A stretch of 64,000 bases of DNA from an uncultured Actinomycetes bacterium (GTDB taxonomy: Bacteria > Actinomycetota > CADDZG01 > WHSQ01), in assembly GCA_937863385.1 (NCBI GenBank), contig CALMBW010000019.1, positions 1-64,000 of the forward strand, written 5' to 3'. Below the pieces are notes generated by a model. That model made no database searches, had not been told where the DNA came from, and was given only the letters and a program-made list of their open reading frames with translations. Position 1 is the first letter of the stretch. The number at the start of each line of letters is the position of its first letter. Shown here piece after piece: positions 10,045 through 57,676 of the stretch. The position numbers and the translations under genes were made by a program.

Positions 10045-10193
10045 AGAGATCTGCTCCTCGACGAAGTAGAGAGTTGCGGTGGCAGAGGCCCTTCGGGCCC
10101 TGCTAGCGAACCGAGACTACCTGATAGCCTTGGAGCGAAAACAGAGACCCAGCAGCCCCAGGTGAGGGCGCCCGAGACAAAAAGTGAGGCAGG

Positions 10194-11318: not shown

Positions 11319-11324
11319 TGGCCC

Positions 11325-12182: not shown

Positions 12183-12257
12183 CTCTCTCCCTGCTCCCGC
12201 TACACCGCCCGCGTTGATTCGTCACACCCATCCTACTTTCGTAGGCTCGCGCCCTAG

Positions 12258-14068: not shown

Positions 14069-14081
14069 GACTCTCCTCTCG

Positions 14082-14693
14082 TTACCTTTCGATCAGGACG
14101 CGGCCTGCATCGAGGTGCACCCTGCCCTCGATGAACATCTTGCAGGCGTCCACCAACATCCTGTGTTCGGCTTCCTTGATCCTCTCGTGCAGCGTTTCCT
14201 CCGAGTCATCGGGCTCTACCGCCACCGGTACCTGCATGATGATGGGACCGTGGTCGACGAGATGGTCGACGAAATGCACGGTCGATCCCGTCACTCGGAC
14301 CCCGGCTGCTAGTGCATCGCGCACTGCGTGCGCGCCCGGGAATGCCGGGAGTAGTGCGGGATGAAGGTTGATCAGGCGTCCAGCGAACGCGTCAACGAAG
14401 ACAGGTGAAAGGATCCGCATGAATCCTGCCGAAACCACTAGATCCGGCTCATGGACCATGACGGCGTCCCGTAGCGCTTCGCTCCAAACTTCCCGAGACT
14501 CGAAGTGCTTGGGCTCCACCCTGCCAGTCGGGATAGCTCTAGCGGCGGCGAGCTCAAGGCCCGAGCAATCGCGATCCGCCAGCACTGCCACGACGGATGC
14601 CTGGATCTCACCACGTTCGCAGGCGACTGCCAGTGCCTCCATGTTCGAACCACTGCCTGATATCAGGGCGACGATCCTCTTGCGTCCGTTCAT
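14082..14693 (-). CDS. purN: phosphoribosylglycinamide formyltransferase
   Basis: 203-residue folate-dependent GAR transformylase. It shows the N-terminal S-G-S-G-S-N phosphate loop, the central H-P-A-L-L-P-A-F-P-G signature with the catalytic His, and G-x-T-V-H-x-V-D-x-x-x-D-x-G-P-I-I with the catalytic Asp. Its ATG overlaps the stop of the upstream esterase gene by 4 nt, and purH follows directly. Confidence 0.96.
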   Translation of the reverse strand: MNGRKRIVALISGSGSNMEALAVACERGEIQASVVAVLADRDCSGLELAAARAIPTGRVEPKHFESREVWSEALRDAVMVHEPDLVVSAGFMRILSPVFVDAFAGRLINLHPALLPAFPGAHAVRDALAAGVRVTGSTVHFVDHLVDHGPIIMQVPVAVEPDDSEETLHERIKEAEHRMLVDACKMFIEGRVHLDAGRVLIER

Positions 14694-15748
14694 CGCTCCT
14701 CCGCGATCGCGAGAAGCAACTCTCTGATGGCACCCGGGTACCGATAGGACAGGCCGAAGTGACCGCCATCGAACAGCTCGAGTGTGTGATCGACATCGAG
14801 CGCTTTCAACTCCGCCGAGAACGCCTGTGCACCCAGATCGAGGAAGAACTCGTCCCTGCGACCGGCGTCGAGATAGATGCGCCTCATCGATGCGAGCGCT
14901 TCACCGTGGGCGGGGGCCATCCTGACCGGATCCCACTCCAACCAGCGCTCCCACACATCGATGACGAGCTTTCCTGTCTCGATCTCGAACGGAAGGATCG
15001 CCTTTGGCGGATCGTCGGGATCGGGTGTGTAGCAAGCGGCCATCGCATAGACATCGAGCGGGTCGTGGAAACGTCCCTCGAAACGGTCTGCGGCCCTCAG
15101 CTCTGCGAAGAACTTCTCGTAGCTGCCTTCCCAATCGTCGCGCAACGCTCTTGCGGCACGCGGGAAGTCACGCAGATAGCAAGTCTCGAACAGAGCATCG
15201 CCGGCATGCGACGCGAGGGCACCGAAGGTATCCGGCCGCTTCATCGGCACCATCATCGCGCCGTAACCGCCGCTGCTCTTTCCGGCTATCGCACGGTGGT
15301 CGCGTGAAGGCAGCGTGCCGAAGCGCTCGTCGATGAATGGCACCACTTCGTCACAGAGGTAATCCATGTAGGGGCCGGTAGACGTCGAGTTGATGAACTG
15401 GGAGCCTCCGTAGGAAGTCCACGCATCCACGTAGACGATCACTCCGGGAGGGCAGTCCCCCGAGACGAACATCGCGTCCATCCGCTCGAAGATCGTCGGT
15501 TCGAACGCGTTGCGCGCCTTCCACATGTCGACCTGCCCGGTGAACCCCTGGATCACGAACACCGACGGGAGTCCCGTGCGCGATCCCTTCACCCCTGGTG
15601 GGAGGTAGACGTAGAGCGGACGACGAACAGGGTCCCCCAGCGGATTGCCCACAAGCAACTCGGATTCAACGGTCAACTCGATGATGCTGCCGGCAAGGTC
15701 GGGTGCCCACGGATAACCCGGGGCACCCGAAACCTCGGTTAATGCCAT
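14690..15748 (-). CDS. putative esterase (alpha/beta hydrolase, esterase D type)
   Basis: 352-residue alpha/beta hydrolase of the PF00756 putative-esterase type. The nucleophile elbow is G-K-S-S-G-G-Y-G near residue 155 and a C-terminal G-G-H-F with the candidate catalytic His lies near 336. There is no signal peptide. The physiological substrate is unknown. It lies inside the sucCD-purNH operon, 3 nt after sucD and overlapping purN by 4 nt; this looks like a co-transcribed guest rather than a metabolic partner. Confidence 0.78.
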   Translation of the reverse strand: MALTEVSGAPGYPWAPDLAGSIIELTVESELLVGNPLGDPVRRPLYVYLPPGVKGSRTGLPSVFVIQGFTGQVDMWKARNAFEPTIFERMDAMFVSGDCPPGVIVYVDAWTSYGGSQFINSTSTGPYMDYLCDEVVPFIDERFGTLPSRDHRAIAGKSSGGYGAMMVPMKRPDTFGALASHAGDALFETCYLRDFPRAARALRDDWEGSYEKFFAELRAADRFEGRFHDPLDVYAMAACYTPDPDDPPKAILPFEIETGKLVIDVWERWLEWDPVRMAPAHGEALASMRRIYLDAGRRDEFFLDLGAQAFSAELKALDVDHTLELFDGGHFGLSYRYPGAIRELLLAIAEER

Positions 15749-15751
15749 CGC

Positions 15752-16633
15752 CTACCCGCGAAGGCCGGCGACCAGCTGAGCGACCTCCGAAGGGTTCTTG
15801 GCTACCGGATAACCCGCCTCCCGGAACGCATCGGCTTTGGCTTGCCATGTGCCTTGGGAGCCGGAGACGATGGCTCCTGCGTGTCCCATACGCTTGCCGG
15901 GCGGAGCCTCGCGGCCGGCGAAATAGCCAACGAGCGGTTTGCCGAGATTCTCTTTCGCCCAGGCCGCCGCACGCTCTTCGGCGTCCCCGCCGATCTCCCC
16001 CACCAGCACGACGACCTCAGTCTCGGGATCGTCGCGGAACCTCGACAGCACGTCGATGAAGTCGCTGCCAGGGATCGGGTCACCACCGATGCCTACGCAG
16101 GTCGATTGACCGAGACCCAATTGGGTCAGTTCGTGAACGATCTGGTACACGAGCGTGCCCGAACGGGACACGAACCCAACCGGACCTGGCGCTTGACTGC
16201 ACACCTCACCAGGGATGATGCCGACGTTCGCGCGACCGGGCGAGATAACACCCGGGCAGTTAGGCCCGATCAAGGTCACATCTCGGTCGCTGCTCCGAAG
16301 GTAAGTGACCACACGAGCCATATCCATAGCGGGGATGTGCTCGGTTATCGCAACGATCGTGTCGATACCGGCCTCGAAAGACTCGAGGATCGCGTCGGCC
16401 GCGAAACGGGCCGGGACGAACACCATTGAAGTGTTCGCACCCGTGCCGTCTACCGCCGCAGCGACGGTGTCGAAGATCGGGACCCCTTCGTGCTGGATGC
16501 CACCCTTGCCGGGGGTCACACCGGCCACGAGGTCGGTCCCGTAGTCACGGTTGCGCAACGAATGGAAAGTGCCTTCGGCGCCGGTCAGACCCTGAACAAC
16601 CAATTTCGTTCTTTCGTCGACGATGACGGCCAT
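15752..16633 (-). CDS. sucD: succinyl-CoA synthetase alpha subunit
   Basis: 293 residues. It has the CoA-binding Rossmann domain with G-x-T-G-x-x-G near the N-terminus and the ligase domain with the phospho-histidine in K-R-M-G-H-A-G-A-I near residue 250. The alpha-beta enzyme interconverts succinyl-CoA and succinate with nucleotide triphosphate formation. The stop of sucC and the ATG of sucD share one base (TGATG at 16631-16635), consistent with equimolar synthesis. Confidence 0.97.
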
Positions 16634-40306: not shown

Positions 40307-41812
40307 CTATTTCTTTAGGGCGCTCGTGCCTAGGGCTTGGGGGGCCGGGTCGAGGCCGAACTGCTCCAGGATCGTGCAGTGAACGTCCCAGAGATGCAGC
40401 CCTTCCTTGCGGCCGGTGGGCTGCCCGGGGGCGTTGTTCATGATGAAGATCCCGTGCTCGGCGTGGTTGGCTTCGTCGGAACCCGTGTCGTTCTCGAAGG
40501 TGTAGATATCGCCGTAACCGACCGAGCCGACCGAGCGCCAGCGCAACTCGCCGAAGATCACGATGAGGTCCGGGGCAACACCGTTGGTGGTCGTGTAGAT
40601 CCCTTCGGGCTTATGAGCTTTGTTGCCCATCGGCTTGCCTTCGTGGTCGACCATCGCTTCGATCTTGGCGATCAACTCGTCCCGGACCGCTTCGTACTGA
40701 TCCTGCGGGATGATGCCGTTCGGCTCGCGGCCTTCGACGTTCAAGAACAAGCGGCCGTAGTAGCCGCCGTCGCCCCAGGCCTTGGTCTTGCTCCAATCGA
40801 TCGTGAGTTTGTTGAAAGGAGTGACCTCTGCCGGCATACCCTCTTCGAAGTTGAGGTACCCCTCGTTCACGAGCCATTCGTTGAAGCAGAGCCCGCCGTA
40901 CATGGGCTTGGCGCCGTGGTCCGAGACCACCAGAACAGTGGTGTTGTCGTCCGCGTACTTGTCGAGAAGCTCCCCGACCTTGCCGTCCAGGTAACGGTAG
41001 TAGTCGCGCAGGGCGTCCTTGTGGGGATTGTCCGGCTCGAAGCGCGGGTGGTTCGGGTCGATGTAGGACCAGATGCCGTGGTTAAGGCGGTCGGGACCCA
41101 TCTCGACCATCATGAAGAAGTCCCAAGGCTTGTTGGCCAGCAGATAATCGGCGGCCTTGAAGCGCTCCTCGGTCATCTTGTAGGACTCGTCGATGATGTA
41201 TTGCGTGTCGTCGGTGCGGAAGTTGCGGACGTCAAAGATGTAATTGATCCCGTTGCTCACCAACTCTTGCTTGAGCTCTTTCGGGTAGGTGTACTCGGCC
41301 TCGTCGTTCGGTGTAAGGAAGCAACCGATCTGCACGCCCTTCAAAGCCTTGGGCGGATAGCTCGGCGGCACCGACATGACGATGCAGTCCTTGCCTGCCT
41401 CGGAAAGGATGTCCCACACCGTCGGTTCCTTGATCGCCCACGAGGTTGCGAACGAAAGGCCGTCGTAAGTGTGGTCCTTACGATTGCGGAACCCGTAGAT
41501 ACCCAAGGTGCCGGGGTCCTTGGACGTCATCATGCACATCCAGGCCGGAACCGTGATCGGGGGCGTGATGGATTCGAGAGGTCCGAACATCCCGTTCTCG
41601 CGCAGCTTCGTGAGATTGGGGATCTCGTCGGTGTACTCGTCGAAGATGTGCTCGGGGGGAGCGCAGTCCAACCCGATCACCATCACCTTGCGACGGTTGG
41701 GATCCTTCTCGTTTTCGGCCTGCGCGCTTGAGGAATCGGCAGCGCGCGTTCCCTGCGGCCCCTCGCCCGCCCGCGAGTCGTCTTTCTTCTTCAGTCGATC
41801 TAAGAGACCCAT
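40307..41812 (-). CDS. alkaline phosphatase superfamily phosphodiesterase in the sulfate-activation operon
   Basis: 501 residues of the type I phosphodiesterase/nucleotide pyrophosphatase superfamily with a charged low-complexity N-terminus (1-40). The metal Asp49 is in V-I-G-L-D-C, the likely nucleophile Thr87 in P-P-I-T-V-P-A-W, with [15 protein letters not shown] and a C-terminal H-x-x-H-G completing the set. No signal peptide, so it acts in the cytoplasm. Lying between sat and cysC (9 nt after sat), it could hydrolyse APS, PAPS, PAP or a sulfated product; this is inference from position. Confidence 0.82.
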
Positions 41813-41821
41813 GCGTAACTC

Positions 41822-43003
41822 CTAAGCCTTGCCTTGAGCGTCCGCGATCAGGATGCGAGCGACCTCGGGACGCGAGAACTCTTGCGGTGGCTCGATGCCG
41901 TCCTGAAGCATCTGACGCACCTGGGTCCCCGACAGGAAGACCCGGTCTTCCTTGCCGTGAGGACAGGTCTTGTCAGAGCCCATCCCTTCACACTTGTTGC
42001 ACCAGAAAGAGTGCTCGAACTTCAGAGGCTCGATGCCGAGCTCGCCCGGCTCGAACTGATCGAACATCTCCTGCGCCTCGTAGGTCCCGTAGTAGTCACC
42101 GACACCTGCGTGGTCGCGCCCGACGATGAAGTGTGTGATCCCGTAGTTCTTGCGGAGAAGGGCGTGCCAGATCGCCTCACGGGGACCGGCATAGCGCATC
42201 GCGGCCGGGAAGACGGAGAGAACCACGCGGTTCTGCGGGTAGTAGTTCTCCATCAGGACCTCGTAACACTTCATGCGGGTCTCCGCAGGGATGTCGTCGC
42301 CCTTCGTGCCACCAACGAGTGGGTGGATGACCAGGCCTTCGGTGATCTCTAGAGCGCACTTGGTCAGGTACTCGTGAGCACGGTGGATCGGGTTACGGGT
42401 CTGGAAAGCGACGACGGTCTTCCAACCATTGTCCGCGATGTACTCACGAAGCTGCAGCGGGGTGCGGCGGTAGTTCTCGAACTCGTGCGAGAACACGTTG
42501 CGCAGAACCGTGACCTCGCCACCAACGTAGTTGGGGGCCTGGCTGTAGAGGTACGCGACGCCGGGGTGTTCCTTGTCATCAGTCTTGTAGGTCTTGAGTG
42601 CCTCGTTCGAGACGTCGTAGGTATAGACGTCTGCAACGTCGATGGTTGCGACGATCTCGCCTTCGTGCACGATCGCGGCCCGCTTTCCGGCCTCTAGGTT
42701 GGCGACCTCCTGGTCGGTTGCCGACAGAGTGATCGGCAAAGCCCAGGGAAGTCCGTTGGCCAAGCGCATCTCCTCAACGACCGACGTGTAGTCATCGTTG
42801 GTCATGAAGCCACGGTTCGGCGAGACTGCACCAACGGCGAGCAGCTCCAGATCGGAAAGAACACGACGGGACTTCGCCTCGATCGTGGGGTAGGACTCAG
42901 CTTCTTTGGTAAGAGCTGCGATCTCGTCTTGTCCTGCCATGCGGATCTCGAGGGCACCGCCATGGGGGGCGTTGCCTGGAACGTCCTTCTGGGTGAAGGG
43001 CAT
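41822..43003 (-). CDS. sat: sulfate adenylyltransferase (ATP sulfurylase)
   Basis: 393-residue monomeric-type ATP sulfurylase making APS from ATP and sulfate. The active-site motif [10 protein letters not shown] is at 201-210, V-G-R-D-H-A-G follows, and a C-terminal C-x-x-C...C-P-H-G cluster (probable zinc site) matches the bacterial/archaeal class. The start at 43003 is chosen for AAGGAGG 7 nt upstream and the family-typical N-terminus; the frame is open 12 codons further. First gene of sat-phosphodiesterase-cysC. Confidence 0.94.
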
Positions 43004-43099
43004 CGATAGCCTCCTTGCCTGTCTAGGGTCGCGCGACACAGACGGTAAGGGACCGGCCGTGCCTGTGGGATGTGGAGGCGCCGAAGGGACACTCCGGCT

Positions 43100-43132
43100 G
43101 CACTCTTATAGCACTCTAAGGGTACCAGATAA
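43100..43132 (-). promoter_or_regulatory. candidate sat promoter with direct repeats
   Basis: Minus strand: TTATCT (43127-43132), 16-bp spacer, TATAAG (43105-43110). On the plus strand GCACTCTTA (43100-43108) and GCACTCTAA (43111-43119) form near-identical direct repeats one helical turn apart over the -10, a likely regulator site. The start of sat is about 100 nt downstream. Confidence 0.45.
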
Positions 43133-43173
43133 GGCGGATCGAGGCGGGGCCGGGGGCGGCCGGAAAAGGGCAT

Positions 43174-43269
43174 AAAAAATGTACCCGTCGAGCCTTCGTC
43201 CCGGGCAAGCCCGGTTTACAACTCAACGGGTACGAGTAGGAATCTAGAGGCTGGCCGCAGCACTGGCAA
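43174..43269 (-). ncRNA. minimal promoter-hairpin-T6 unit (small RNA or attenuator)
   Basis: Minus strand: TTGCCA (43264-43269), 17 bp, TAGATT (43241-43246), predicted start near 43234. From there 43222-43233 pairs with 43181-43192 (11 of 12 positions), enclosing an inner CCGGGC/GCCCGG stem, and six T residues follow immediately (43174-43179). The transcript would be about 60 nt, almost entirely one long hairpin. It may instead be a terminator or riboswitch-like attenuator upstream of sat. Confidence 0.5.
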
Positions 43270-43450
43270 CCCCCACCGGCGTCATTTATTCGCGTTCTCG
43301 ACCTGATTTCTTCGCGGATCGGACATATCGGCGCCCCTGACGGGCTTTTCGCGCCGGTATCGAAAGGTTGGAGGCCCCGATTCTTCCGCGCGAACAAAGG
43401 AGGCTAAGGTTCCAGGTCGAACCCCCAGGCTTGGGATTTGATGGCGTCCG

Positions 43451-43499
43451 CTGTGGTGTGGCAGGATGCCTTCGGCCACTGGCCGGCTCTTCCCCACAG
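43451..43499 (+). promoter_or_regulatory. foldable leader of the M23 peptidase gene
   Basis: CTGTGG (43451-43456) can pair with CCACAG (43494-43499), enclosing two small hairpins (GGCA/TGCC and GGCC/GGCC). The element lies about 50 nt before the peptidase ATG and contains CTCTTCCCC, a word reminiscent of c-di-AMP riboswitches, whose other conserved blocks I do not find. Confidence 0.25.
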
Positions 43500-43550
43500 A
43501 TGTTTCGGAGTCCTCGCGGGCTCGATGGACCGACCGAGTAAAGGAGAACG

Positions 43551-44663
43551 ATGCGTCGAAGGTTCGACCGCGCGGTGCTTGCGGCCACCCTCGTCGGCAC
43601 TCTACTCATCCCCGTTATCGGGTCGATGGCCGGACCGAAGCAACAGTTGGAACAAACCGAGGATCGCCTCGAGGAGATCCGGAACAAGATCGAAGCCGAC
43701 AAGGCGAAGGCAACCACCCTTAAAGGCAAGATCCAGGTACTCAACAGATCTCTCACCGAGCTTCAGATCGAAGTAGCGAAGCTCGACAAGCAGGCCGAAG
43801 AGATCCGCTACCGCGTCCGAAACGCTCAAGCTCGCATCGATGCCACCCAGGTCGAGATAGATGCGATCCAACAAGAGGCGATCGCTCAAGCGTCCGAGCT
43901 CTACAAGTCGGGCGCGTTTGAGACCATCGATGCCCTGATGAACTCCGAATCCCTCGCAGAGCTCGACGAGCGGATCGAGATGCTCGGGGTCGCGGCGCAA
44001 CAGAACACCGGAGCTCTCGTGAAGTTCGGGCGGCTCCAGGTAAAGATCCGTGGCGAGAAGCTCGAGCTCTTCAAGATCCAAGAGGAGCTCAACTCCACGC
44101 TTCAGGTGCGCCGGACGATCCTTCAAGAGCAAACGAAACGCAAAGCGGAGCTGGACGTGGCACTGGCCCAACTACGCGCCGAGCTCGGAGCCAACAAGGA
44201 CAAAGAGCGACACCTCGAAGAAGAATCAGACCGCTTCGCCCAACTCCTGCTGGAGAACCAAGCCAAGGCCTCGGTGGCGGCGCTCGGTACTTCAGGCAAA
44301 GGATTCATCTGGCCGCTGAACGGACCGATCACCTCCTACTACGGCCCGCGCTGGGGTCGCATGCACACCGGCCTTGACATCGACGGGTACACCGGCCAAC
44401 CGATCGTCGCAGCCAAAGAGGGGGTTGTGGTGATGGCCAGCTACTACTCCGGATATGGGAACTGCGTCATCATCGACCACGGCGGAGGCTACGCAACCCT
44501 GTACGCGCACATGAACGAACTCCGCGTGTCACAGGGTGAGCGGGTGGAGCAGGGCGACGTGGTTGGCACCGTAGGCGCCACCGGGAACGTTACCGGCGAC
44601 CACTTGCATTTCGAGGTGCGGGTCAACGGTGACCCCGTCGACCCCATGCCCTACTTGCCGTAG
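43551..44663 (+). CDS. secreted M23 peptidase with coiled coil (EnvC/NlpD-like)
   Basis: 370 residues: signal peptide (1-28), a long coiled coil (about 30-235) with heptad-like K/E/L pattern, and a C-terminal lysostaphin-type M23 domain (about 255-370) with the zinc motifs H-T-G-L-D-I-D and H-L-H-F-E. It cleaves peptidoglycan cross-bridges or, as in EnvC, activates an amidase if the site is degenerate; here the metal ligands are intact. AAAGGAG precedes the ATG. The upstream leader is structured. Confidence 0.92.
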   Translation: MRRRFDRAVLAATLVGTLLIPVIGSMAGPKQQLEQTEDRLEEIRNKIEADKAKATTLKGKIQVLNRSLTELQIEVAKLDKQAEEIRYRVRNAQARIDATQVEIDAIQQEAIAQASELYKSGAFETIDALMNSESLAELDERIEMLGVAAQQNTGALVKFGRLQVKIRGEKLELFKIQEELNSTLQVRRTILQEQTKRKAELDVALAQLRAELGANKDKERHLEEESDRFAQLLLENQAKASVAALGTSGKGFIWPLNGPITSYYGPRWGRMHTGLDIDGYTGQPIVAAKEGVVVMASYYSGYGNCVIIDHGGGYATLYAHMNELRVSQGERVEQGDVVGTVGATGNVTGDHLHFEVRVNGDPVDPMPYLP

Positions 44664-44676
44664 TGGTGCACGAACG

Positions 44677-45492
44677 CTAAGGCGTTCTGAACAGCGCTAA
44701 CTGGCGCGATCGCGCCAACAAGCGTCCATCTTTCGACCACATCGATCCGTCTTCGATCAGCACGCCGTTGTCACCTACCGGCGCTTCGAACCTACACAGG
44801 ACCCAGTCATGGTGGCAGGGTGGCTCACCCAAGAAGTGCACGGTCAGGTCTACCGTCGGTGCATCGACCGGTTCCGAGATCCGGGTGAACAACGCCGGTG
44901 GGAACGCGTCCGAGTAGCACGCCAAAAGCACTTCATCGACCGGGCGTGCTTCGACAGGACGGATCCACCCTCCCAGCAAGGCGTTCGGGGATGAAGAGTA
45001 TGGGAGGTTGCCCAACGCGAAGCGATACTCGAAGTTGCGGGCGAAGACAGGAAGCATCTCGGGAGGTACCGGCATAACCGGCAGGTCGGCGGGGTCTGCA
45101 ACTTCGGGCATCCCGTACTCATCGTAGGAGGGCCCCCGCCCACGGAGCGAGAAAGAGCAGTTAGAGGTCGCACACAAGCGCTCCCCTTGGAACATCCGTG
45201 CGGTCGTCGATGCGAAAGAGCGCCCGATCCGCTCGACCGTCACATCGATCGTGAGCTCGCCCTCTAGCGCCCTGTCGACGAAATGCACGTTGAAAGCCCG
45301 CGGTGATCGTGAAGAGTCGGCCAGCTCGGAGATCTGCGCGTTCAGCACGATGGCCGCCAGGTAACCACCGTTGGGGCCCTTGTAGACCCTCCACGGCTCG
45401 AGGGCCTCTCCGGCCCACCGCCCCTGCTCCACCCGCTGCAGCGCAACTCCGCGGTCGAACGCAGAGCTTTGTGTCTGGATCTGTTCACTCAT
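44677..45492 (-). CDS. acyl-CoA thioesterase, double hot-dog (TesB-like)
   Basis: 271 residues with two hot-dog folds: the first (about 15-115) contains G-P-N-G-G-Y-L-A-A-I, the second (about 150-265) contains N-A-L-L-G-G-W-I-R and ends in a basic strand. It probably hydrolyses acyl-CoA thioesters. The start at 45492 (M-S-E-Q) is preferred over 45540 because the longer version would overlap the divergent gene's start and because TAGCGT lies 8 nt upstream. Confidence 0.8.
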   Translation of the reverse strand: MSEQIQTQSSAFDRGVALQRVEQGRWAGEALEPWRVYKGPNGGYLAAIVLNAQISELADSSRSPRAFNVHFVDRALEGELTIDVTVERIGRSFASTTARMFQGERLCATSNCSFSLRGRGPSYDEYGMPEVADPADLPVMPVPPEMLPVFARNFEYRFALGNLPYSSSPNALLGGWIRPVEARPVDEVLLACYSDAFPPALFTRISEPVDAPTVDLTVHFLGEPPCHHDWVLCRFEAPVGDNGVLIEDGSMWSKDGRLLARSRQLALFRTP

Positions 45493-45527
45493 GTCTGCGA
45501 ACGCTAACCGCACCCGCAGCCTTCCAC

Positions 45528-45533
45528 TAACCT
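45528..45533 (+). promoter_or_regulatory. leaderless-type -10 element (TAACCT) of the M15 gene
   Basis: TAACCT is followed by 7 nt and then the GTG start at 45541, giving a leaderless mRNA beginning with GTG. The divergent thioesterase start lies 48 bp away, so the two promoters share this short region. Confidence 0.55.
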
Positions 45534-45540
45534 TAGACAT

Positions 45541-46665
45541 GTGGGGTCACTCGTCCGCATCAGCTTGGCAGGACTCATCGTCACGGTGACGTTTGGCTTG
45601 ACGACTGCCGGCTCGCCCCCGGCCGCGGCCGGCGAAGGGCTGCGGCGCTACGTCATCTGGTCGCCGCAGGGGCTTCCGGCGAGGACCGGAAAAGAGATCG
45701 AGAAGATCGACGGGACCCGGGCAACACCGGTGATCATGGGCCTCGACTGGTTGATGCGGTCCTACGACCGGGCCGGTAACAAGATCGACGATCTCCCCGA
45801 AGGTTACGGGTACCCGTTCGAGATGACGGTGGTCAATCCGGCTGCTTACAAGCGGTTCGTGCCGGCCGACCAGGCAGAGGTAGTGGCAAGACTGGAACCG
45901 GGCCAAGCCTTGATCTCGCGTTCAGAAGCGAAGCTTCGCGATCACGACGGCCCGTTGCGTCTCGGGCTCCGCAGCGGGGGTGTCAACGCGGTCGCGGTGG
46001 TCTCCGACGCGGTGACCAACGGCTACGAGGCAATCATGGCCGCTCCTGCACCCGACTGGAAGTACCGCATGCGCTACTTCCTTGTTCAGACCCCCGCCAC
46101 CACATCGCGCGACGAGCTCCGAGAGGCCGTGGCAAGGGTAGCCGGGGACATCCCCTTAGGCCTTCGTTCGAACACGCAGGTCCCACATCTTCGCTATGCC
46201 CCCGGTGTCCGCCCACAGGTCGCTTTCAAGCGAGCCTTCGGCGAGTTCCCCGCGCGGCCCGCTTCCAGTGGCTCGCTTTCGATCCTCGGGCGCTGGGTTT
46301 CCAGGCACATCAGGACCGAGTCGGTTCCAGTGCTGGGACGCGTGACCTGTCACCGGAAGTTCTTCGCCCAGTTGCGTGAAGCCTTCGAGGAGCTGAACCG
46401 TCGCGGCCTGGGACATCTCGTGCGTGAGTACAGCGGGTGCTACAACGCACGCTTCGTCGCAACACCTGCAGGTATCCGGCTGTCCCGGCACACCTGGGGT
46501 ATCGCCTTCGACATCAACAGCTCCAACAATCAGTTCGGAGCCGAACCCCGTCAAGATCCCCGGCTCGTCAAGATCATGCGCGACCACGGGATGGTGTGGG
46601 GTGGGGATTGGGTCGTTCCCGACGGGATGCACTTCGAATGGGACCGGCTCCCTGAACCGCACTAA
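45541..46665 (+). CDS. secreted M15-type peptidoglycan peptidase
   Basis: 374 residues with a signal peptide (about 1-30), a long N-terminal region of unknown role (35-265) and a C-terminal D-Ala-D-Ala carboxypeptidase-like M15 domain (about 280-374). Zinc motifs are S-R-H-T-W-G-I-A-F-D (His and Asp) and G-M-H-F-E-W (His). It probably cuts stem peptides of the cell wall. It starts with GTG 7 nt after a -10 element (leaderless). Confidence 0.83.
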   Translation: MGSLVRISLAGLIVTVTFGLTTAGSPPAAAGEGLRRYVIWSPQGLPARTGKEIEKIDGTRATPVIMGLDWLMRSYDRAGNKIDDLPEGYGYPFEMTVVNPAAYKRFVPADQAEVVARLEPGQALISRSEAKLRDHDGPLRLGLRSGGVNAVAVVSDAVTNGYEAIMAAPAPDWKYRMRYFLVQTPATTSRDELREAVARVAGDIPLGLRSNTQVPHLRYAPGVRPQVAFKRAFGEFPARPASSGSLSILGRWVSRHIRTESVPVLGRVTCHRKFFAQLREAFEELNRRGLGHLVREYSGCYNARFVATPAGIRLSRHTWGIAFDINSSNNQFGAEPRQDPRLVKIMRDHGMVWGGDWVVPDGMHFEWDRLPEPH

Positions 46666-47025: not shown

Positions 47026-50000
47026 TTAGATAGGTGGCACGGGGGGAGCACCGGTGCCCTCGATCTCGCTGCTGCGCTTCCCGTTGACGTTCCCGAACTC
47101 ATCGACGACGCCACCGCTATCAACGTAGGCCACATCGCCCGCGTACAAGGTGACGTTGGCGAACCACCGGCCGCCACGCTCGGACGCGACGACCTCTTCT
47201 GTCGCCCCGCCCGCTCTCCTGACCGTCACAAGTACCCTGTCGACACGAGCGGTGTCAGCCCACGGACGGAAACTGCAGAAAGAGCAATACGACTGCCATC
47301 GAGAAGCGTCATCGAGGTCGTACTTAAAGACCCTCCATTCGCACTTGATGTACCTGAATGGAGAATCGCTGTAACTATCGGGTAAGTCGATCGGACCGGG
47401 GTCCCCTAGTTCCGCCCGGCCTTGCTTGCCTGGACATGCGACACCCTTCGAACCGTTCTCGAACGCAGAGCCGACCTCGAAAGAGAGACCGTCGGTCTCC
47501 GCGCGCATGTCCTTCACCACGATCCCGTCCCACGGCTCAACGGTGAAGGTATGAGTCAGTTCGTAGGGTTCGGTGGCGCCTGCAAGGGTACGGCGCTCAC
47601 CTTCCACGACGAAGCGGTACTCCCCAGCAGGGGTTGCCCTCCTGCTCTCGCCGGACGCGTCCGGCCACGAGATATCGGATCCAAAGGCTTCGAAAGTGGC
47701 GGCCCATTCCCATTCGAACTCCCCGGCACGCCAGCTATCCAATTCGTCGAACCTGGGGAACCTAACCGTGAGTTGGATCTCGCCAGTGGTATCTGCGAAC
47801 GGTTCCCACCCGCTTTCCGTCCGGCGTTGAACCACGACCCGCGGCATCTCGGCGTAAGTGGAGCCACCGATCCATCTCAGGTTCGCACCGGAGAACCGTT
47901 GCACGGTTTCGGGTCCGCTGATCACCTGGGGCGAGCCACCGTCGGGCGGCAACTGAGTCACGTAGACCTTTTCGTAGGCCCCGGCAAGCTCGCCCAAACC
48001 ATCGGCAACTATCTGGGCGCGGGCAGACTCAGCCTGGAAGGCAAGGTCGATAGGCCGGAGCTCCGGCCCAGGAGCTCCGTTGAGTGACGCTGCCAGGCGA
48101 GACAGCCGAGTCGCAAGGAAGTCGGCGCCATGCGGACCAAGCCCGGAAAGTGCCTTGCGGTAGCTGTCGAACGCCCGGTATTCCCGGTACTCCGGTACGT
48201 AGCCCCAATAGTCGTTGGCCATCCCGACCGCGATCGGCAAGGCGAAGCCGTTCTCCGGGAACTCCTCGTGCGTGAAGTTGCCCTTGATCTCATCCGGTTC
48301 GTACGGCTCGGCTTCTGAGCCCAGAGTGGCGAGGTCGGTCTCCCAACCCGCAGCGTCGTTCTCTATCTGGGCGACCATACGCCGGTAAGCAAGATCCTCA
48401 ACCGGGGGCAGGTCCGTAGTTGGATCCTGAGGATTGGCGCAAGTCCAGGTCGAATCGGCGTTCCGTATGCACCAATCTCGTCCCGTAGGGGTCTGCTGGT
48501 CGGTCCAATCGAATCCCAGCCGAAGGTTATCCGGGGTCCGATCGATCCGCGATTCGATGTTCAGCGCCGTATCGGTGAACTGTTCGCAAGGACACGCGGT
48601 GACGCCGATGTCACCAAGCTTGATAGCCATGAGATGCACCGCAGCGGTCTCTTCGACCCCGGTTAGCTTCGTGGCACTGTAGCTCTCGGGGATCGGCACC
48701 CCGGCCTTCTTGAGTTCTTCGTACATCGTTCCACCGATCGGCCCGTAGGCATCTCCAACCGCGCTAACCGCGTCACCGATCGGCTGTCCCAAGGGTCCCG
48801 TTTCTCCCGGAGGGTTACGCGGCGAGGAGCAATCAGGCAACCCGAGAACTGGGATGGCCGGGTCGCCGTGCATCAGCGTCCTCGTGTTGCAGTTGGAGAT
48901 GCCGGGATAAGGGCGCGTGGACGGGGGGGCGAAGCGCTGGCTTGCCACCGCGACCTCGAAACCTTCCTGATAGGGCGAGAAGCGATCCGCCATCTCCGGA
49001 GTACCAGACGCTATGTCCGACCGTGTGTCTTCGATGGCGGTCGCGAGCAGGCGTGCAGCCCTGTCGACCTCGGCGAAACCGTTGTCCTGGTACTCGCGGC
49101 GCTCCTCAGGCTCATGCACCCGGGTGCCCTTGTGGGGGCCGGAAGTGCCCATCTCCCTGCCGGACCAGATGGTCACGCCCCCCACTTCTCGGTCGACGAT
49201 CCGAGTGGTCGCGGTTGCGATGTCTCCGTTCAGCAGGTCGTATCCCCACGTCCATTCGGGATGTACGCCGAAGACAACCCACGTCGCCAGCGGGGCTGTT
49301 CCCCCGTCTTCGAGTAGCTCATCGAAGGCAACCGTAGTGACCTGTCCCGTCGTGTAGTCGTAGGGCTGACCCGCCGGGGTGCCGTCGTCGGCAACCTTAG
49401 GACCATAGGTGTGTGTGGTGATCTCGTTGAAAGAGGAGGTGGACCCACCCATACGCACCGGCACCAGTCCAGCGTTGGCGTCGATGACCGCCTTTGAGGC
49501 GCGCTGCGCCATGTATTCGAAGAAGCGCAGGTCCATGACGTCCTGGAAGAGCCACGCGCCCCAGCTCGGGGTCGAGTAGTACGCCGAGTTGTGATTGTGC
49601 GACGCCGTGACCATGACGTTGCGCGCCGGGATGCCGGTGGCCTCCTCAACGAGGGTACCGATACGCCGCGTGAGTAAGTCTTGCGGAAGATAGAGATCGT
49701 GGCTGACGATGGCGACTTTCTCGCCATCGGAACCCTCCACCACGAGAGCCTTCACCTCGACGTCCGAGCCGAGACCGTAAGAGGGCCGCTTCTTCGTACT
49801 GTGTCCGTACGGATCCACTGAATCCTCGGAGACCGGGATCTCGGTGTCGGAGAACTGACCGCCCGAGGCCCCGATGTGCCACGGGGCTTTCACAACGGCC
49901 ACTCCTGCGCGCGACACACGACCGTCGTGGTCTTCAGGCTCCGACCCCTCGTCGTCGTCGTCGTCGTGGTCTTCAGGCTCCGACCCCTCGTCGTCGTCGT

Positions 50001-51723
50001 CGTCGTGGTCTTCAGGCTCCGACCCCTCGTCGTCACCGTCGTCGTGGTCTTCAGGCTCCGACCCCTCGTCACCGTCGTCGTGGTCTTCAGGCTCCGACCC
50101 CTCGTCGTCGTCGTCGTGGTCTTCAGACTCCGATCCCTCGTCACCGTCGTCGTGGTCTTCAGGCTCCGATCCCGATCCCTGGTCGCCGGCACGTTCCTTA
50201 GGTGCTCCCAGACCGTCTAGGGCCGTCAACGCCGCGCATCTCTCGTTACGCCTCGCGATCCCGAATCCGATGTTCTCGGCGGCGTTCTGAACCGTGCACA
50301 CCGCGTGGCGCCCGATCGTTGGTGACACCATGAGGGTCCAATGGCCCGGGCAAGCTCCGTCCTTTTTCCCGGGAAGCTGATGAGTGACTTCCTCTTCAGG
50401 ACATCCGGCGGCGAAAGTAGCTCCCTCTTCGAGCGTCTGGCGGTATTCGTCGTCACCGAGGGTCATGTAGCCGAGGAAATCATCGGCTGCCCCTAGCATG
50501 AAGTGTGCGGATGCTCCCGTGACGCTGTCTCGCAACGCCTCTTGTAGCTGGGGGAACGGCTCTCCGGGGATCGTCGAGATGAACACATCTCCGATCCGTA
50601 GCGCGCCCGCGTAGGTCCCGTACATGCCGCCGCTCAGCCACGGTGCCCTTGTGTCGCGGTCGATACCGAAACGGTCATCGCACGGATCCTGCGGAGAGGG
50701 GGGGCAGAGCGGCACCCCGCCCGGGACAACGTTCGTACCGAACACCGGCTGGGCTAGCTGCTCGCGGATGAAGATCCGGTCTGCGGCAACGGTGTTGCCT
50801 TCGACCGGGATCCGGTCGTTAGAAGCAGCTTCGAGCAATGCCCTTAGTCGCTGTCGCGCTTCTTCCTGATCCTTCTCCTGACCCTGAGGCCCCCAGTCGG
50901 CAGCGCCAACTGCTCCAACGAAACCGATGCCGACACCTAGTCCAAGAGCCTCGATCTCCTGTGCGGCCCACGCCGTCCAGTCACCAGTGGCCATGTCGTC
51001 GCATCTCCCGCAGACCGTGGCGTGGGGAGCGTAGTTGACCAACGTCGCGATCGGCTCGCCTTCGGGCGACCGGGCGAACAGGACGCGAAACTCCTCGTCC
51101 ATCGCTTCGCTGTTCGTGGGCCCCTGGCTGTAGGCGGACTCCAGGGCCGGCCCCGTCGCCGTGCCTACCGACAGCTCGGCCGGTCTGCGCGCCGCGTAGG
51201 CATCGGTGGCAGCCGAAACCATCGACTCCGCTAAGAGCTCCATGTACGACCTCTTCAAACCTCCCGAGATCCCGATCGTGTCGGGAGCCGCGTGAGAGTG
51301 ATCGCTCGTGACCACGATCTGACCGGCAGAGATTCCTGTCTTCGCCGCGATGCGCTGACGCACCTGATAGATGCCCGTCTCTCCTTGCTCGGGCTTGTAG
51401 GAGGCGAACAACCCGAACGCTGTCGTCTTCACGATGATGATGGTGTCCTCGAGCTCGTTTCCGCCCGTGACCGCGATCGCAGACGTCCTAAGAGGGTCCG
51501 CTATGCCCTTCATGGGCCGTTTGCAACCCAACGCGTAGCCGCCCAGACAGATGCGCTCGCCCGGGTCGGGGTCGGCCGAGACCGAGGCCGCGCCCACGAG
51601 GAAATCAGCAGCAGCATCCTGCTCCTCGGCGCCAACGGAAGCCGGAGGGATCACCAGGAGACTAGCAACGAGTCCAGCCGCGAGCAGAGCTGCAAGAAGA
51701 GGTAAACGAGACGGGTGGGCCAT
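47026..51723 (-). CDS. giant secreted protein with two neutral-ceramidase-like modules
   Basis: 1565 residues: signal peptide (1-32), a first neutral/alkaline-ceramidase-like module (about 38-500; V-T-S-D-H-S-H-A-A-P-D and F-V-G-A-V-G-A-A-D-W-G-P), an acidic repeat linker (about 515-600), a second ceramidase-like module (about 610-1200; V-T-A-S-H-N-H-N-S-A-Y) and C-terminal beta-sandwich regions (1280-1565). Ceramidases hydrolyse N-acyl-sphingosines; here the amidase fold is inferred and the substrate is open. The first module keeps His residues near the zinc site. AAGGAG precedes the ATG. Surface attachment is not evident. Confidence 0.8.
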   Translation of the reverse strand: MAHPSRLPLLAALLAAGLVASLLVIPPASVGAEEQDAAADFLVGAASVSADPDPGERICLGGYALGCKRPMKGIADPLRTSAIAVTGGNELEDTIIIVKTTAFGLFASYKPEQGETGIYQVRQRIAAKTGISAGQIVVTSDHSHAAPDTIGISGGLKRSYMELLAESMVSAATDAYAARRPAELSVGTATGPALESAYSQGPTNSEAMDEEFRVLFARSPEGEPIATLVNYAPHATVCGRCDDMATGDWTAWAAQEIEALGLGVGIGFVGAVGAADWGPQGQEKDQEEARQRLRALLEAASNDRIPVEGNTVAADRIFIREQLAQPVFGTNVVPGGVPLCPPSPQDPCDDRFGIDRDTRAPWLSGGMYGTYAGALRIGDVFISTIPGEPFPQLQEALRDSVTGASAHFMLGAADDFLGYMTLGDDEYRQTLEEGATFAAGCPEEEVTHQLPGKKDGACPGHWTLMVSPTIGRHAVCTVQNAAENIGFGIARRNERCAALTALDGLGAPKERAGDQGSGSEPEDHDDGDEGSESEDHDDDDEGSEPEDHDDGDEGSEPEDHDDGDDEGSEPEDHDDDDDEGSEPEDHDDDDDEGSEPEDHDGRVSRAGVAVVKAPWHIGASGGQFSDTEIPVSEDSVDPYGHSTKKRPSYGLGSDVEVKALVVEGSDGEKVAIVSHDLYLPQDLLTRRIGTLVEEATGIPARNVMVTASHNHNSAYYSTPSWGAWLFQDVMDLRFFEYMAQRASKAVIDANAGLVPVRMGGSTSSFNEITTHTYGPKVADDGTPAGQPYDYTTGQVTTVAFDELLEDGGTAPLATWVVFGVHPEWTWGYDLLNGDIATATTRIVDREVGGVTIWSGREMGTSGPHKGTRVHEPEERREYQDNGFAEVDRAARLLATAIEDTRSDIASGTPEMADRFSPYQEGFEVAVASQRFAPPSTRPYPGISNCNTRTLMHGDPAIPVLGLPDCSSPRNPPGETGPLGQPIGDAVSAVGDAYGPIGGTMYEELKKAGVPIPESYSATKLTGVEETAAVHLMAIKLGDIGVTACPCEQFTDTALNIESRIDRTPDNLRLGFDWTDQQTPTGRDWCIRNADSTWTCANPQDPTTDLPPVEDLAYRRMVAQIENDAAGWETDLATLGSEAEPYEPDEIKGNFTHEEFPENGFALPIAVGMANDYWGYVPEYREYRAFDSYRKALSGLGPHGADFLATRLSRLAASLNGAPGPELRPIDLAFQAESARAQIVADGLGELAGAYEKVYVTQLPPDGGSPQVISGPETVQRFSGANLRWIGGSTYAEMPRVVVQRRTESGWEPFADTTGEIQLTVRFPRFDELDSWRAGEFEWEWAATFEAFGSDISWPDASGESRRATPAGEYRFVVEGERRTLAGATEPYELTHTFTVEPWDGIVVKDMRAETDGLSFEVGSAFENGSKGVACPGKQGRAELGDPGPIDLPDSYSDSPFRYIKCEWRVFKYDLDDASRWQSYCSFCSFRPWADTARVDRVLVTVRRAGGATEEVVASERGGRWFANVTLYAGDVAYVDSGGVVDEFGNVNGKRSSEIEGTGAPPVPPI
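49921..50178 (-). repeat. in-frame tandem repeat encoding an acidic linker
   Basis: Seven copies of a 36-39 bp unit encode S-E-P-E-D-H-D-D-(G/D)-D-E-G, with length changes in whole codons (runs of GAC/GAT) and one S-E-S-E variant. The linker is extremely acidic and could bind calcium or act as a flexible spacer between the two enzyme-like modules. Near-identical DNA copies suggest recent expansion by slippage. Confidence 0.9.
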
Positions 51724-52015: not shown

Positions 52016-52993
52016 ATGACGCTCACTCACATCAAGGCCACCGGGCTGGTGCGCCGGTTCGGCGAGATCGAAGCCGTCGCCGGGATCGACCTCGAGGTAG
52101 CGGCCGGGGAGGTGTTTGGATTCCTCGGGCCTAATGGCGCCGGCAAGTCAACCACCGTCCGGATGCTGACCACATTGCTCCGGCCTACTGAAGGCACGGC
52201 TCAAGTAGCCGGTCACGATGTCGTGCAGGATGCGGACGACGTACGCCGCAGTATCGGGGTCGCCCTCCAGGATGCCGCGATCGACCCGCTGATGACCGGC
52301 CGGGAGCTCCTTGCCCTTCAGGCCGTTCTGCACGGGATCGGCCGTCATCGGTCCGCCGAACGTAGCCAGCAGCTCCTACACACCGTAGGGCTGACAAAGG
52401 CAGCAGATCGCCGGGTCGGAACCTATTCCGGCGGGATGCGCCGGCGCCTCGATCTTGCGCTGGCGCTGGTTCACGAACCTATCGTCTTGTTCCTCGACGA
52501 ACCGACAACGGGGCTGGACCCGAACTCTCGCGTTGCTCTGTGGGAAGAGGTGCGCAAGCTGAACCGAGACTTCGGGACGACGGTCTTTCTAACCACCCAG
52601 TATCTCGAGGAAGCCGACCAGCTGGCGGGGCGTATCGCGATCATCGACGACGGCAAGATCGTGGCCGATGGCGCTCCGGCTCGGCTGAAAGCAGAGGTCG
52701 GCGAGCCTTCGCTGCGCGTCGCACTCCCACCCGGCGCCGACGAAGCAGCCGCAGAGGCCGTACTGCTCCCCTACGGTGACCGAGTGGCGGATGGGAAGGG
52801 GTACGTCACCATCCGCCTGGCGGGGGGAGCTTCCAAGGTGGGCATGGTGTCGAGAGCCTTAGACGATGCCGGCATCGAGATCGAAGGTCTCGAGCTTCAC
52901 GTCCCGACCCTCGACGACGTGTTCCAGAAGGCCACAGGACGGCGGCTCGAGGGCGCCGAAGAGGCACCGGCCGAGATGGAGGAAGTTGGTTGA
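52016..52993 (+). CDS. ABC transporter ATPase, DrrA-like (ABC-2 exporter)
   Basis: 325 residues: Walker A G-P-N-G-A-G-K-S-T near 41-49, signature Y-S-G-G-M-R-R-R-L-D, Walker B I-V-L-F-L-D-E-P-T-T-G-L-D-P, and a C-terminal extension typical of daunorubicin-resistance (DrrA) ATPases. It powers the two following permeases in export of a lipid, polyketide or drug-like compound. GGAGGGG lies upstream of the ATG; the stop overlaps the next TTG start. Confidence 0.93.
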   Translation: MTLTHIKATGLVRRFGEIEAVAGIDLEVAAGEVFGFLGPNGAGKSTTVRMLTTLLRPTEGTAQVAGHDVVQDADDVRRSIGVALQDAAIDPLMTGRELLALQAVLHGIGRHRSAERSQQLLHTVGLTKAADRRVGTYSGGMRRRLDLALALVHEPIVLFLDEPTTGLDPNSRVALWEEVRKLNRDFGTTVFLTTQYLEEADQLAGRIAIIDDGKIVADGAPARLKAEVGEPSLRVALPPGADEAAAEAVLLPYGDRVADGKGYVTIRLAGGASKVGMVSRALDDAGIEIEGLELHVPTLDDVFQKATGRRLEGAEEAPAEMEEVG

Positions 52994-53766
52994 ACCAACT
53001 CGAGCAGCTCGGTGCGCTCGCGCGCCGGGCGATAGTCAACACGTCCCGGCAACCTGCATCGGTCGTCCCCTCGATCCTTTTCCCATTGATCTTCATGTCC
53101 ATGAGCGCAGGGGCGTTGAACAAAGCCACCGAGCTGCCGGGGTTCCCGCAGGTCGACGGATTCATGCAGTTCGCCATCAGCGCCACGATCATCCAAGGGA
53201 TCCTCTTCGGTGCCATCGGCGCGGGCACCGACATGGCCCGGGACATCGAAGGGGGCTTCTTCGATCGCCTGATCGCATCCCCGGTGTCCAGGGCATCGAT
53301 CGTGATCGGACGCCTCGCCGGAGCCGCCACCCTCGGATTCGTCCAGGGCATCGTCTTTCTGCTGATCGTGATGCTGCTCGGAGTAACCGTTGAAGGTGGC
53401 GTTGCTGCGATCGCGATGATCGCCGTCGCTGCCGCCATCATCGCCGCCGGCGTAGGGGCCGTGACGGTCAGCATGGGGCTCAGGACGGGTTCGTCGGAGG
53501 CTGTGCAGGGCGCGTTCCCCTTGATCTTCGTCTTCCTGTTCTTCTCGAGCGCGTTCTTCCCCCGTGACCTCATGTCGGGGTGGTTCAAGACGGTGGCCTC
53601 GGTCAACCCGTTATCCCATCTGGTTGAGGGTCTTCGCACCCAGGTGATCACTGGGGTCGACATCGGTGCCTGGCTCACCTCGATAGGCATCGGTGCATCC
53701 ATCTTCGCTCTCGGGTTGGTCCTTGCGCTTGCGGCGCTCAACGGCAGACTGAAGGCCTCGCATTGA
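52990..53766 (+). CDS. ABC-2 type permease subunit 1
   Basis: 258 residues with six hydrophobic helices and the ABC-2 signature around 160-240 (F-L-F-F-S-S-A-F-F-P, then V-N-P-L-S-H-L-V-E-G-L-R). The TTG start overlaps the ATPase stop (TTGA) and GGAGGAAG precedes it. Forms the membrane channel with the next gene. Confidence 0.9.
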   Translation: MNQLEQLGALARRAIVNTSRQPASVVPSILFPLIFMSMSAGALNKATELPGFPQVDGFMQFAISATIIQGILFGAIGAGTDMARDIEGGFFDRLIASPVSRASIVIGRLAGAATLGFVQGIVFLLIVMLLGVTVEGGVAAIAMIAVAAAIIAAGVGAVTVSMGLRTGSSEAVQGAFPLIFVFLFFSSAFFPRDLMSGWFKTVASVNPLSHLVEGLRTQVITGVDIGAWLTSIGIGASIFALGLVLALAALNGRLKASH

Positions 53767-54548
53767 AGGCTCCTGCGTTGCCGGCCAACTCCTTACGGGT
53801 CGCGTGGGCCATGGCCGAGCGCAGCATCAAGCTGATCCCCCGGGTCCCTTCAACGTTCTTCCCGTCGCTGATCATGCCGATCTTTCTCGTGGTCTCGTTC
53901 GGTGGGCAGTTCGCCGGTCTGGCGCTGCTACCAGGATTCCCGACGGATCAGATCCTTAACTGGTTCATCCCCATGGCAACGCTTCAGGGCGCGGCCTTTG
54001 CAGGGATCACTACGGGCTTGGGGGTCGCTCGCGACTTAGAGAACGGCTTCTTCGATCGCTTCTTGTTGAGTCCGGCACGGCGGGGGGCTCTGGTTGCGGG
54101 CCCACTGATCGGCGGCGTACTGCGCGGCTTCCTTCCACTGATCTTGTTGACCTTCGTGACCATATTCAGCGCTGCAACGGTTTCTGGTGGCCTACTGGGG
54201 TGGATCACCTATTACGTGGCTGCCCTCGGCATGGCACTCGCAGCCGGAGCGTGGGCGTTCGGGCTTGCCATCCGTTTCAAGACGATGCAGGTCGCGCCTC
54301 TGATGCAGACCGGCCTTTTCTTGGCGGTCTTCCTTTCGACCGCGCAGATGCCACTAGAGCTGATCGGCGGGTGGCTCCATGACGTCGCTCGATTCAACCC
54401 CATGACCAACGTCCTTGCCCTCGCACGCGAAGGCTTTCTGGGTGAAGTCACTTGGGCCGACACCTGGCCGGGCCTGGTCTCGCTCGCCGGCATGGCAGCT
54501 TTCCTCATCGTCTTCGCTGCCCGAGGTATGCGAAAAATCATCCCTTAG
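53763..54548 (+). CDS. ABC-2 type permease subunit 2
   Basis: 261 residues, about six transmembrane helices, with a cytoplasmic E-N-G-F-F-D-R-F-L-L-S-P loop like that of subunit 1 (E-G-G-F-F-D-R-L-I-A-S-P), indicating an ancient duplication, and F-N-P-M-T-N-V-L-A-L-A-R near the end. It starts at a TTG overlapping the previous stop (TTGA). The same start architecture in both permeases implies strict coupling. Confidence 0.9.
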   Translation: MKAPALPANSLRVAWAMAERSIKLIPRVPSTFFPSLIMPIFLVVSFGGQFAGLALLPGFPTDQILNWFIPMATLQGAAFAGITTGLGVARDLENGFFDRFLLSPARRGALVAGPLIGGVLRGFLPLILLTFVTIFSAATVSGGLLGWITYYVAALGMALAAGAWAFGLAIRFKTMQVAPLMQTGLFLAVFLSTAQMPLELIGGWLHDVARFNPMTNVLALAREGFLGEVTWADTWPGLVSLAGMAAFLIVFAARGMRKIIP

Positions 54549-54637
54549 ACAGCTTCGGTAGCTGGATTCTCTGGCGGCTTCATGGTCCGATTCTCGTGGG
54601 CGCCCCAACGACAACTGAGTTTTCGGAGGATGCGGAC

Positions 54638-55903
54638 ATGATCAGAAGATCGATACTCGTGCTTGCTTTGGTCGGGCCGCTGCTCACGACCGGGCATTCG
54701 GCAGCAGGGCCCTCTGACGATGCGTTGATCGCTTTCGTGCGAGGAGAGTCGTTCTCTTCTGTCATCCACACCGTCTACCCCGACGGTTCCGGTGACCAGG
54801 AGCAGGATCCGGCGCCAGGGTTCGGCGGTTCTTTCATGCACTCGCCAGATTGGGATCCAACCGGCCGCTTGCTGGCGTTCGGCACCGCTTACAACAACGA
54901 CATCTACATCATGGACGTAAGTGGCGAGGAACCCACTCTCCTGCGACAACTCAACACCGGTGGGGACAACCCCAGGTGGTCATCCGATGCTTCTCTCATC
55001 ACCTTCGACAGACAGACGGAGAACACCGGCGGCGGCGGAACCGGATCACAGATCTTTGTGACCAACGCCGGCGATGGATCCGGGACGATGCAGCTCACCG
55101 CCGGCAGCGGGGCCAACTACGACGTCGTCGGAGCCGTTCACTCGCAGCAGGCGTATACACCCGACTTCTCGACCGACGGCAGCACGATCTTCTTCGGAAG
55201 ACAGTTCATCACAGTGGCATGTTGCACACCCACTGGATTGAATTACGGCGAAACCACCTACCAGCTCGCTGCCATTCCTGTCGGTGGAGGGGAACTTACG
55301 ATCTTGGAACAGAGCCCTGATGGGAACTTCTCGAATGCCGACGTTTCGGCCGACGGACGATCCCTCGCATACGACCACTTCGACGGGGAAACTCGGTGGA
55401 TCTATATCCGCGATCTAGTTTCGGGCGACGTCGAACGCTTGGTCCAAGGAACTGACCCCAGCTTCTCACCAGCCGGGAGCAGGATCGCATATACATCCGG
55501 GCTCGATGTGATGGCTATCGACCTGAGAGATGGGCAGATCGTCAACGTGACCGAACCCACCGGTCAATGCCGAGGGAACTTCTTCTGCGGTTCCGCCGCC
55601 TGGCAACCGCGCGATGTGCCGACGGAGTATGAAAGAAAGATATCCCTGGACGGTTCTGCGACAGGTGTCTCGGGCAAGGTCAACTCAGATGCCGGCAAGT
55701 GCATAAAGGCCGTTACGGTCAAGATCCAACGCAAGAAACCTTCAGGCTGGAGCAAGGTCTCCTCAACGGTCACCGACATCAAGGGCAGGTTCGAAGCCGC
55801 TATCGACCGGCCCGGCAAGTATCGAGCCGTGACCCCCGAGGTCACCAAGAGCTCAGACGTCTGCCTCAAGGCCGTCTCGAACATCAAGAAGCTGGCTACC
55901 TAG
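54638..55903 (+). CDS. secreted TolB-like propeller with C-terminal beta domain
   Basis: 421 residues: signal peptide (1-23), a PD40/TolB-like propeller (about 28-330; D-W-D-P-T-G-R-L-L-A-F-G, W-S-S-D-A-S-L-I-T-F, V-S-A-D-G-R-S-L-A-Y) and a C-terminal Lys-rich beta-sandwich (335-421). Function unknown. The ATG at 54638 is chosen because CGGAGGA lies upstream and it begins with a signal peptide; the frame is open further into the permease gene. A strong terminator follows. Confidence 0.78.
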   Translation: MIRRSILVLALVGPLLTTGHSAAGPSDDALIAFVRGESFSSVIHTVYPDGSGDQEQDPAPGFGGSFMHSPDWDPTGRLLAFGTAYNNDIYIMDVSGEEPTLLRQLNTGGDNPRWSSDASLITFDRQTENTGGGGTGSQIFVTNAGDGSGTMQLTAGSGANYDVVGAVHSQQAYTPDFSTDGSTIFFGRQFITVACCTPTGLNYGETTYQLAAIPVGGGELTILEQSPDGNFSNADVSADGRSLAYDHFDGETRWIYIRDLVSGDVERLVQGTDPSFSPAGSRIAYTSGLDVMAIDLRDGQIVNVTEPTGQCRGNFFCGSAAWQPRDVPTEYERKISLDGSATGVSGKVNSDAGKCIKAVTVKIQRKKPSGWSKVSSTVTDIKGRFEAAIDRPGKYRAVTPEVTKSSDVCLKAVSNIKKLAT

Positions 55904-55908
55904 AGCAG

Positions 55909-55940
55909 AGGAAGGGCCCGGATCCCTCCGGGCCCTTCCT
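55909..55940. terminator. bidirectional terminator between convergent genes
   Basis: A perfect 14-bp stem (55909-55922 with 55927-55940) and a 4-nt loop, followed on the plus side by TGTTTCTG. It lies 6 nt after the TolB-like gene and 25 nt after the groEL stop on the other strand, so it can serve both. Confidence 0.85.
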
Positions 55941-55964
55941 GTTTCTGCGCTTGGCGCTACGGGG

Positions 55965-57676
<1,712 letters not shown>

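Follow-up and report, generated by a model that had tools for sequence, protein, structure and literature searches.

Two diverged ceramidase-like modules paired in one predicted protein of an uncultured Actinomycetes bacterium

Neutral ceramidases are enzymes that cut certain fats. Their zinc site is formed by residues 97, 204, 411 and 448 (PaCD numbering), with residue 99 as the second His of an H-x-H motif, and a Ser of these enzymes has been read as a nucleophile. Representatives with solved structures are the enzymes of Pseudomonas aeruginosa (2zws/2zxc) and human (ASAH2, 4wgk), in which the catalytic domain (PF04734) is accompanied by an Ig-like domain (PF17048). The pocket of human neutral ceramidase contains Arg257 and Ser354, and in one study the Ser is read as holding the pocket Arg (PMC6952831); three further papers form part of the same background (PMC5773612, PMC5915598, PMC13022665). 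Among the open-licence papers listed in a literature search, none dealt with tandem ceramidase proteins, which does not imply their absence from print.

The window, i.e., the whole stretch of 64,000 nucleotides analysed here, encodes a protein in which two such modules, M1 and M2, are separated by an acidic linker. Judging from its first residues, the protein is probably secreted. Its layout is as follows:

47026..51723, reverse strand: whole ORF, a single ATG ORF of 1565 amino acids plus stop
51628..51723, reverse strand: signal-peptide-like N-terminus (residues 1-32), putative, read by eye
50185..51627, reverse strand: module M1 (residues 33-513), a neutral-ceramidase-like catalytic domain without Ig-like domain
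49921..50184, reverse strand: acidic linker (residues 514-601); its seven tandem units begin at residue 518 (49921-50172)
47530..49920, reverse strand: module M2 (residues 602-1398), a neutral-ceramidase-like catalytic domain with a predicted Ig-like domain
47029..47529, reverse strand: extra C-terminal Ig-like domain of M2 (residues 1399-1565), in the predicted model beyond the ceramidase match

Standard profiles barely recognise this protein: the Pfam family Ceramidase_alk (PF04734) gives 19.1 bits for the whole chain, below its cut-off of 32.1, with the match on M2 and none for M1, NCBIfam yields chance-level matches only, and a phmmer search of the protein against solved structures finds no match. 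Family profiles alone reach the solved neutral ceramidases, both from an alignment of M1 with 19 relatives (A1; 2zws at 4.5e-16, 4wgk at 3e-11) and from one of M2 with 17 relatives (A2; 4wgk at 3.6e-9, 2zws at 1.7e-7). AlphaFold2 models of M1 (pLDDT 81, pTM 0.89) and M2 (pLDDT 77, pTM 0.80) superimpose on 2zws with Z 30.5 and rmsd 3.2 over 396 residues, and with Z 31.8 and rmsd 3.7 over 542 residues, respectively; among the matches listed for either model, no unrelated fold ranked better. As modelled, both modules have the neutral-ceramidase fold. The alignment to 2zws ends at PaCD residue 500 for M1 and at residue 644 for M2, which suggests that M2 possesses the Ig-like domain and that M1 lacks it; PF17048 itself matched one of the 18 A2 rows, which is not the M2 described here.

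The first-pass annotation had proposed two diverged ceramidase-like modules in one secreted chain, and this description holds for the predicted folds and the signal-like start. By sequence, M1 and M2 are distant homologues of one another (23% identity over 225 residues, E 2e-4; profile comparison probability 99%). An origin by recent internal duplication was rejected in view of this identity and of the stand-alone relatives that each module has of its own, and the same observations imply that two old families were joined.

The residues that define the zinc site, and those at the places of the pocket Arg and Ser, are located as follows:

51292..51300, reverse strand: M1 H142-x-H144 (HSH), aligned with PaCD 97 and 99, invariant in A1
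51130..51132, reverse strand: M1 Tyr198, in the place of the pocket Arg
51022..51024, reverse strand: M1 H234, aligned with PaCD 204
50896..50898, reverse strand: M1 Asp276, in the place of the pocket Ser
50560..50562, reverse strand: M1 E388, PaCD 411 position
50467..50469, reverse strand: M1 Y419, PaCD 448 position
49591..49599, reverse strand: M2 H709-x-H711 (HNH), PaCD 97 and 99 positions
49411..49413, reverse strand: M2 His771, which seems to stand where the pocket Arg would be, give or take one position
49261..49263, reverse strand: M2 H821, PaCD 204 position
49138..49140, reverse strand: M2 Gly862, which seems to stand where the pocket Ser would be
48583..48585, reverse strand: M2 E1047, PaCD 411 position
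48199..48201, reverse strand: M2 Y1175, PaCD 448 position

All five zinc-site positions (PaCD 97, 99, 204, 411, 448) are occupied in both modules. An H-x-H site with different surroundings in each module had been noticed before, and it is indeed present as HSH (142-144) and HNH (709-711); by structure prediction and comparison of zinc ligands, neither module has lost its metal ligands or its fold. The zinc-site residues are retained in 32/32 modules of a wider comparison, consisting of the 20 A1 rows and 12 further modules hand-picked from the listed relatives, and in all A2 rows that extend over the position concerned. Two incomplete rows were kept in the alignments and omitted from counts at places they do not cover: L034, cut by a contig end, and L028, which enters A2 and the M2 tree with its second frame only and without the H-x-H region.

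The pocket differs. All 20 Arg-bearing rows of the 32-module comparison also have the Ser, the M1 orthologues have Tyr and Asp instead (7/7; 11/11 in a wider M1 set), and the remaining five rows have neither Arg nor Ser. The M2 pair is apparently His771/Gly862 in 12/12 close-type A2 rows, with Asn or Met together with Glu in the other six, although the alignment is possibly off by one here. Near-copies occur among the compared modules (L030/L098; L024/L070), and the rows fall into few clades, so that the coupling of Arg and Ser rests on a handful of evolutionary events. The new feature is that this Arg and Ser are exchanged jointly, M1 having Tyr/Asp in their stead and M2, apparently, His/Gly. 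Such replacements predict a preference for head groups other than that of ceramide, and from sequence, either module should be called “ceramidase-like” rather than a ceramidase. Ser861 of M2 was considered as a shifted nucleophile and is not relied on, as it is Ala in L097. In the M2 of L093, the CPCE motif around the zinc-site Glu is SPSE; the loss of both Cys at once hints that the two function as a pair. A second, single-module relative in the actinobacterial genome itself (L013, G000:C18:91872-93062; 584 aa) carries the Arg/Ser pair.

The reading that we favour, at a probability of about 50%, is a secreted two-module zinc hydrolase, in which two members of the neutral ceramidase superfamily, long separate in descent, act as partners in one chain. 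Both modules are most likely secreted zinc amidases acting on N-acyl lipids. Each site would bind a zinc ion, whose bound water would hydrolyse an amide (or ester) bond of N-acyl lipids outside the cell, and the two sites might take related substrates or successive ones, or M1 and M2 might dock on each other. A serious rival, for which we nonetheless see rather poor odds, is that M2 alone hydrolyses and M1 is a non-catalytic partner that serves as a lid, as a chaperone or in substrate binding. Such a role would suit a module that has neither Arg nor Ser in its pocket, appears to be without the Ig-like domain, and is missing a second pocket Tyr, which is kept in M2 (Y1188; 17/17 covering rows) and absent from M1 in a profile alignment read by hand. 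However, the zinc-site residues of M1 are invariant, and so are the replacing Tyr and Asp (11/11), a pattern more suggestive of chemistry that was kept than of decay.

As assembled, the linker contains seven tandem acidic units (residues 518-601) of 12, 12, 12, 13, 13, 13 and 9 residues. They are near-identical in codons too, as the earlier description of seven near-identical acidic repeats implied, and differ mainly by GAC and GGT codons, which is the pattern that slippage would leave. Tandem Repeats Finder (TRF) places the array at 49923-50173 (~90% matches) and gives it a score of 390, the highest of the four TRF rows in the window; two of the four rows describe this array. Of residues 514-601, 60% are Asp or Glu, and the figure is 57% for the stretch compared with the linkers of other fusions. 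This composition, together with near-identical DNA copies that allow the number of units to change, might suggest that the repeat binds calcium and that its length sets how far apart the two active sites lie or how they respond, as had been proposed initially. The number of units may also differ between strains, as was likewise suggested; no second genome of the genus turned up among those surveyed. The proposal found no support and seems very improbable to us, since the linker shows no recognised calcium-binding domain, and since Asp plus Glu account for 8-16% of the linkers in the five other M1-M2 fusions, which are unrelated in sequence and devoid of any such repeat. The Pfam search of residues 514-601 gave no match at E up to 5 and none to EF-hand, RTX or TSP_3 domains, although profiles serve compositional acidic repeats poorly. 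Because sequence and charge of the linker differ between fusions, the pair probably does not owe its function to the acidic repeat. The repeat is a local feature and the M1-M2 pairing is the conserved one; the repeat is best read as a soluble tether, which would be flexible, grown by slippage and replaceable. A different acidic repeat (GGDGDS type) lies directly before M2 in a protein without M1 (L033, ORF 6546-10445, residues ~243-300).

An array of 250 near-identical bases exactly at the junction is also where short-read assemblies can err in copy number, and the fusion or the repeat could be an assembly artefact that joins two separate genes. We consider this the least probable of the explanations discussed here: a search of its own 2.77-Mb genome found the repeat in this ORF only (two matches, both within the ORF), so that a partner for mis-joining is lacking, the reading frame stays open across all seven units on a contig of 287 kb, and genomes of another phylum show the same domain order with unrelated linkers.

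M1 and M2 are mostly found as separate proteins, in ORFs of ~530-650 aa with M1 only and of ~920-1150 aa with M2 only. Fusions elsewhere comprise five genes in four genomes of one gammaproteobacterial order: L024 of Sinimarinibacterium (1910 aa, measured between stops), L093 and L094 of a single genome, G072 (2022 and 1890 aa), L065 of G067 (3285 aa, reaching the end of its contig), and L028 of Fontimonas thermophila, with a frame change inside M2. The survey of homologues thus returned both single and double modules; the architecture is not restricted to this gene, as the fusions in four other genomes show. The frame change in L028 (F. thermophila DSM 23609) lies at ~9572-10064, near the M2 H-x-H, and reflects either an error in sequencing or a gene that is broken. 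In L030 and L098, the modules are encoded by neighbouring genes in the order M2, M1.

Among 85 genomes of this gammaproteobacterial order, 29 have any match, 12 a close-type M2 and seven an M1, and all seven M1-bearing genomes also have a close-type M2 (hypergeometric 1.6e-7, kinship ignored); M2 is often present without M1. Wider surveys of the actinobacterial phylum, the gammaproteobacterial class and the class of G068 scored at most two candidates per genome, and their counts are lower bounds. Outside the order, the family is rare in these surveys. Strong matches to both M1 and M2 occur in at least 2 of 369 genomes of the gammaproteobacterial class, both of the same order. At least 17 of 249 genomes in the class of G068 have any match, with M1 in G068 alone among the matches listed. 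The phylum of the actinobacterium has any match in at least 18 of 296 genomes, and only the protein at 47026-51723 is fused among the matches listed; in G223 and G260 of this phylum, a close-type M2 forms a protein by itself, with a signal-like start. In its own class, any match is found in 5/24 genomes, one of them fused. Giant ORFs of 3087 to 6247 aa combine one or two ceramidase-like modules of the Arg/Ser type with a C-terminal M2 (L097 of G129, 3754-15936, reverse strand; L066 of G065, 2-13861, forward strand; L095/L096 of G126:C82; L031, 5191-14451, forward strand), and they also contain a stretch that resembles an alpha/beta hydrolase (GNSQGG, read by eye; in L097, Peptidase_S9).

The closest relatives of the M2 described here are stand-alone actinobacterial proteins without M1 in their chains (L025, L026 and L027, 47-53% in blastp; G260 and G223, 53-54%). 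In a tree of 24 M2 rows it likewise falls among stand-alone actinobacterial proteins (supports 82/75 and 88/88, neither of them starred) and not with the fused gammaproteobacterial M2s; the M1 tree gives its M1 no settled place. Holding the four close-type fused rows together, as a single common fusion would have it, changes the log-likelihood by -91 and is rejected by the AU test, with groups named after the tree was seen. At least three changes between the fused and the separate state are needed on the M2 tree, the groups again being named with the tree in view. Independent fusions would fit, as would one old fusion followed by several splits; gain and loss are indistinguishable here. L094 and L065 fall in a second, deep M2 branch and also in an M1 branch of their own, which means that paired divergence is seen twice.

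More ambitiously, M1 and M2 might represent two new catalytic subtypes within the neutral ceramidase superfamily, with Arg and Ser exchanged as one unit (for Tyr/Asp or His/Gly, and in a further set for Asn or Met with Glu), forming an obligate two-site enzyme for an extracellular N-acyl lipid that was fused at least three times or split repeatedly; this we regard as doubtful.

The Sinimarinibacterium (L024), Fontimonas (L028) and G072 (L093) proteins have the same modules in the same order as the protein at 47026-51723, but differ in their short, non-acidic linkers of ~70 residues and in a lipoprotein-like start (by eye), and L024 and L093 also in Big_2 Ig-like domains before M1. M1 and M2 share their predicted fold and all zinc-site positions with neutral ceramidase. 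The differences are the presence of two modules in a single chain, an identity of ~15% with the enzymes of solved structure, a PF04734 score below cut-off, and replacement of the pocket Arg and Ser in both modules.

The ten neighbouring ORFs of the window name no pathway and have no evident tie to the M1-M2 gene, and a plasmid search with the protein gave no match. The flanks (40310-46662 and 52016-57620) encode a type I phosphodiesterase, ATP sulfurylase, M23 and M15 peptidases, an acyl-CoA thioesterase, a DrrA-like ABC ATPase with two ABC-2 membrane proteins, and Cpn60.

The interpretation as a two-module zinc hydrolase rests on the predicted folds, the complete zinc sites, the pairing of the modules and the unrelated linkers. 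Against it stand the absence of the canonical Arg and Ser from both modules, the frequent occurrence of M2 without M1, and neighbours that name no pathway. The joint loss of Arg and Ser next to an intact zinc site provides direct material for the question whether the Ser acts as nucleophile or holds the Arg: if M1 or M2 hydrolyses amides, the Ser would not be needed as a nucleophile in the neutral-ceramidase fold. Moreover, the repeated pairing of M1 and M2 suggests that an extracellular system for degrading lipids has gone unrecognised in two phyla.
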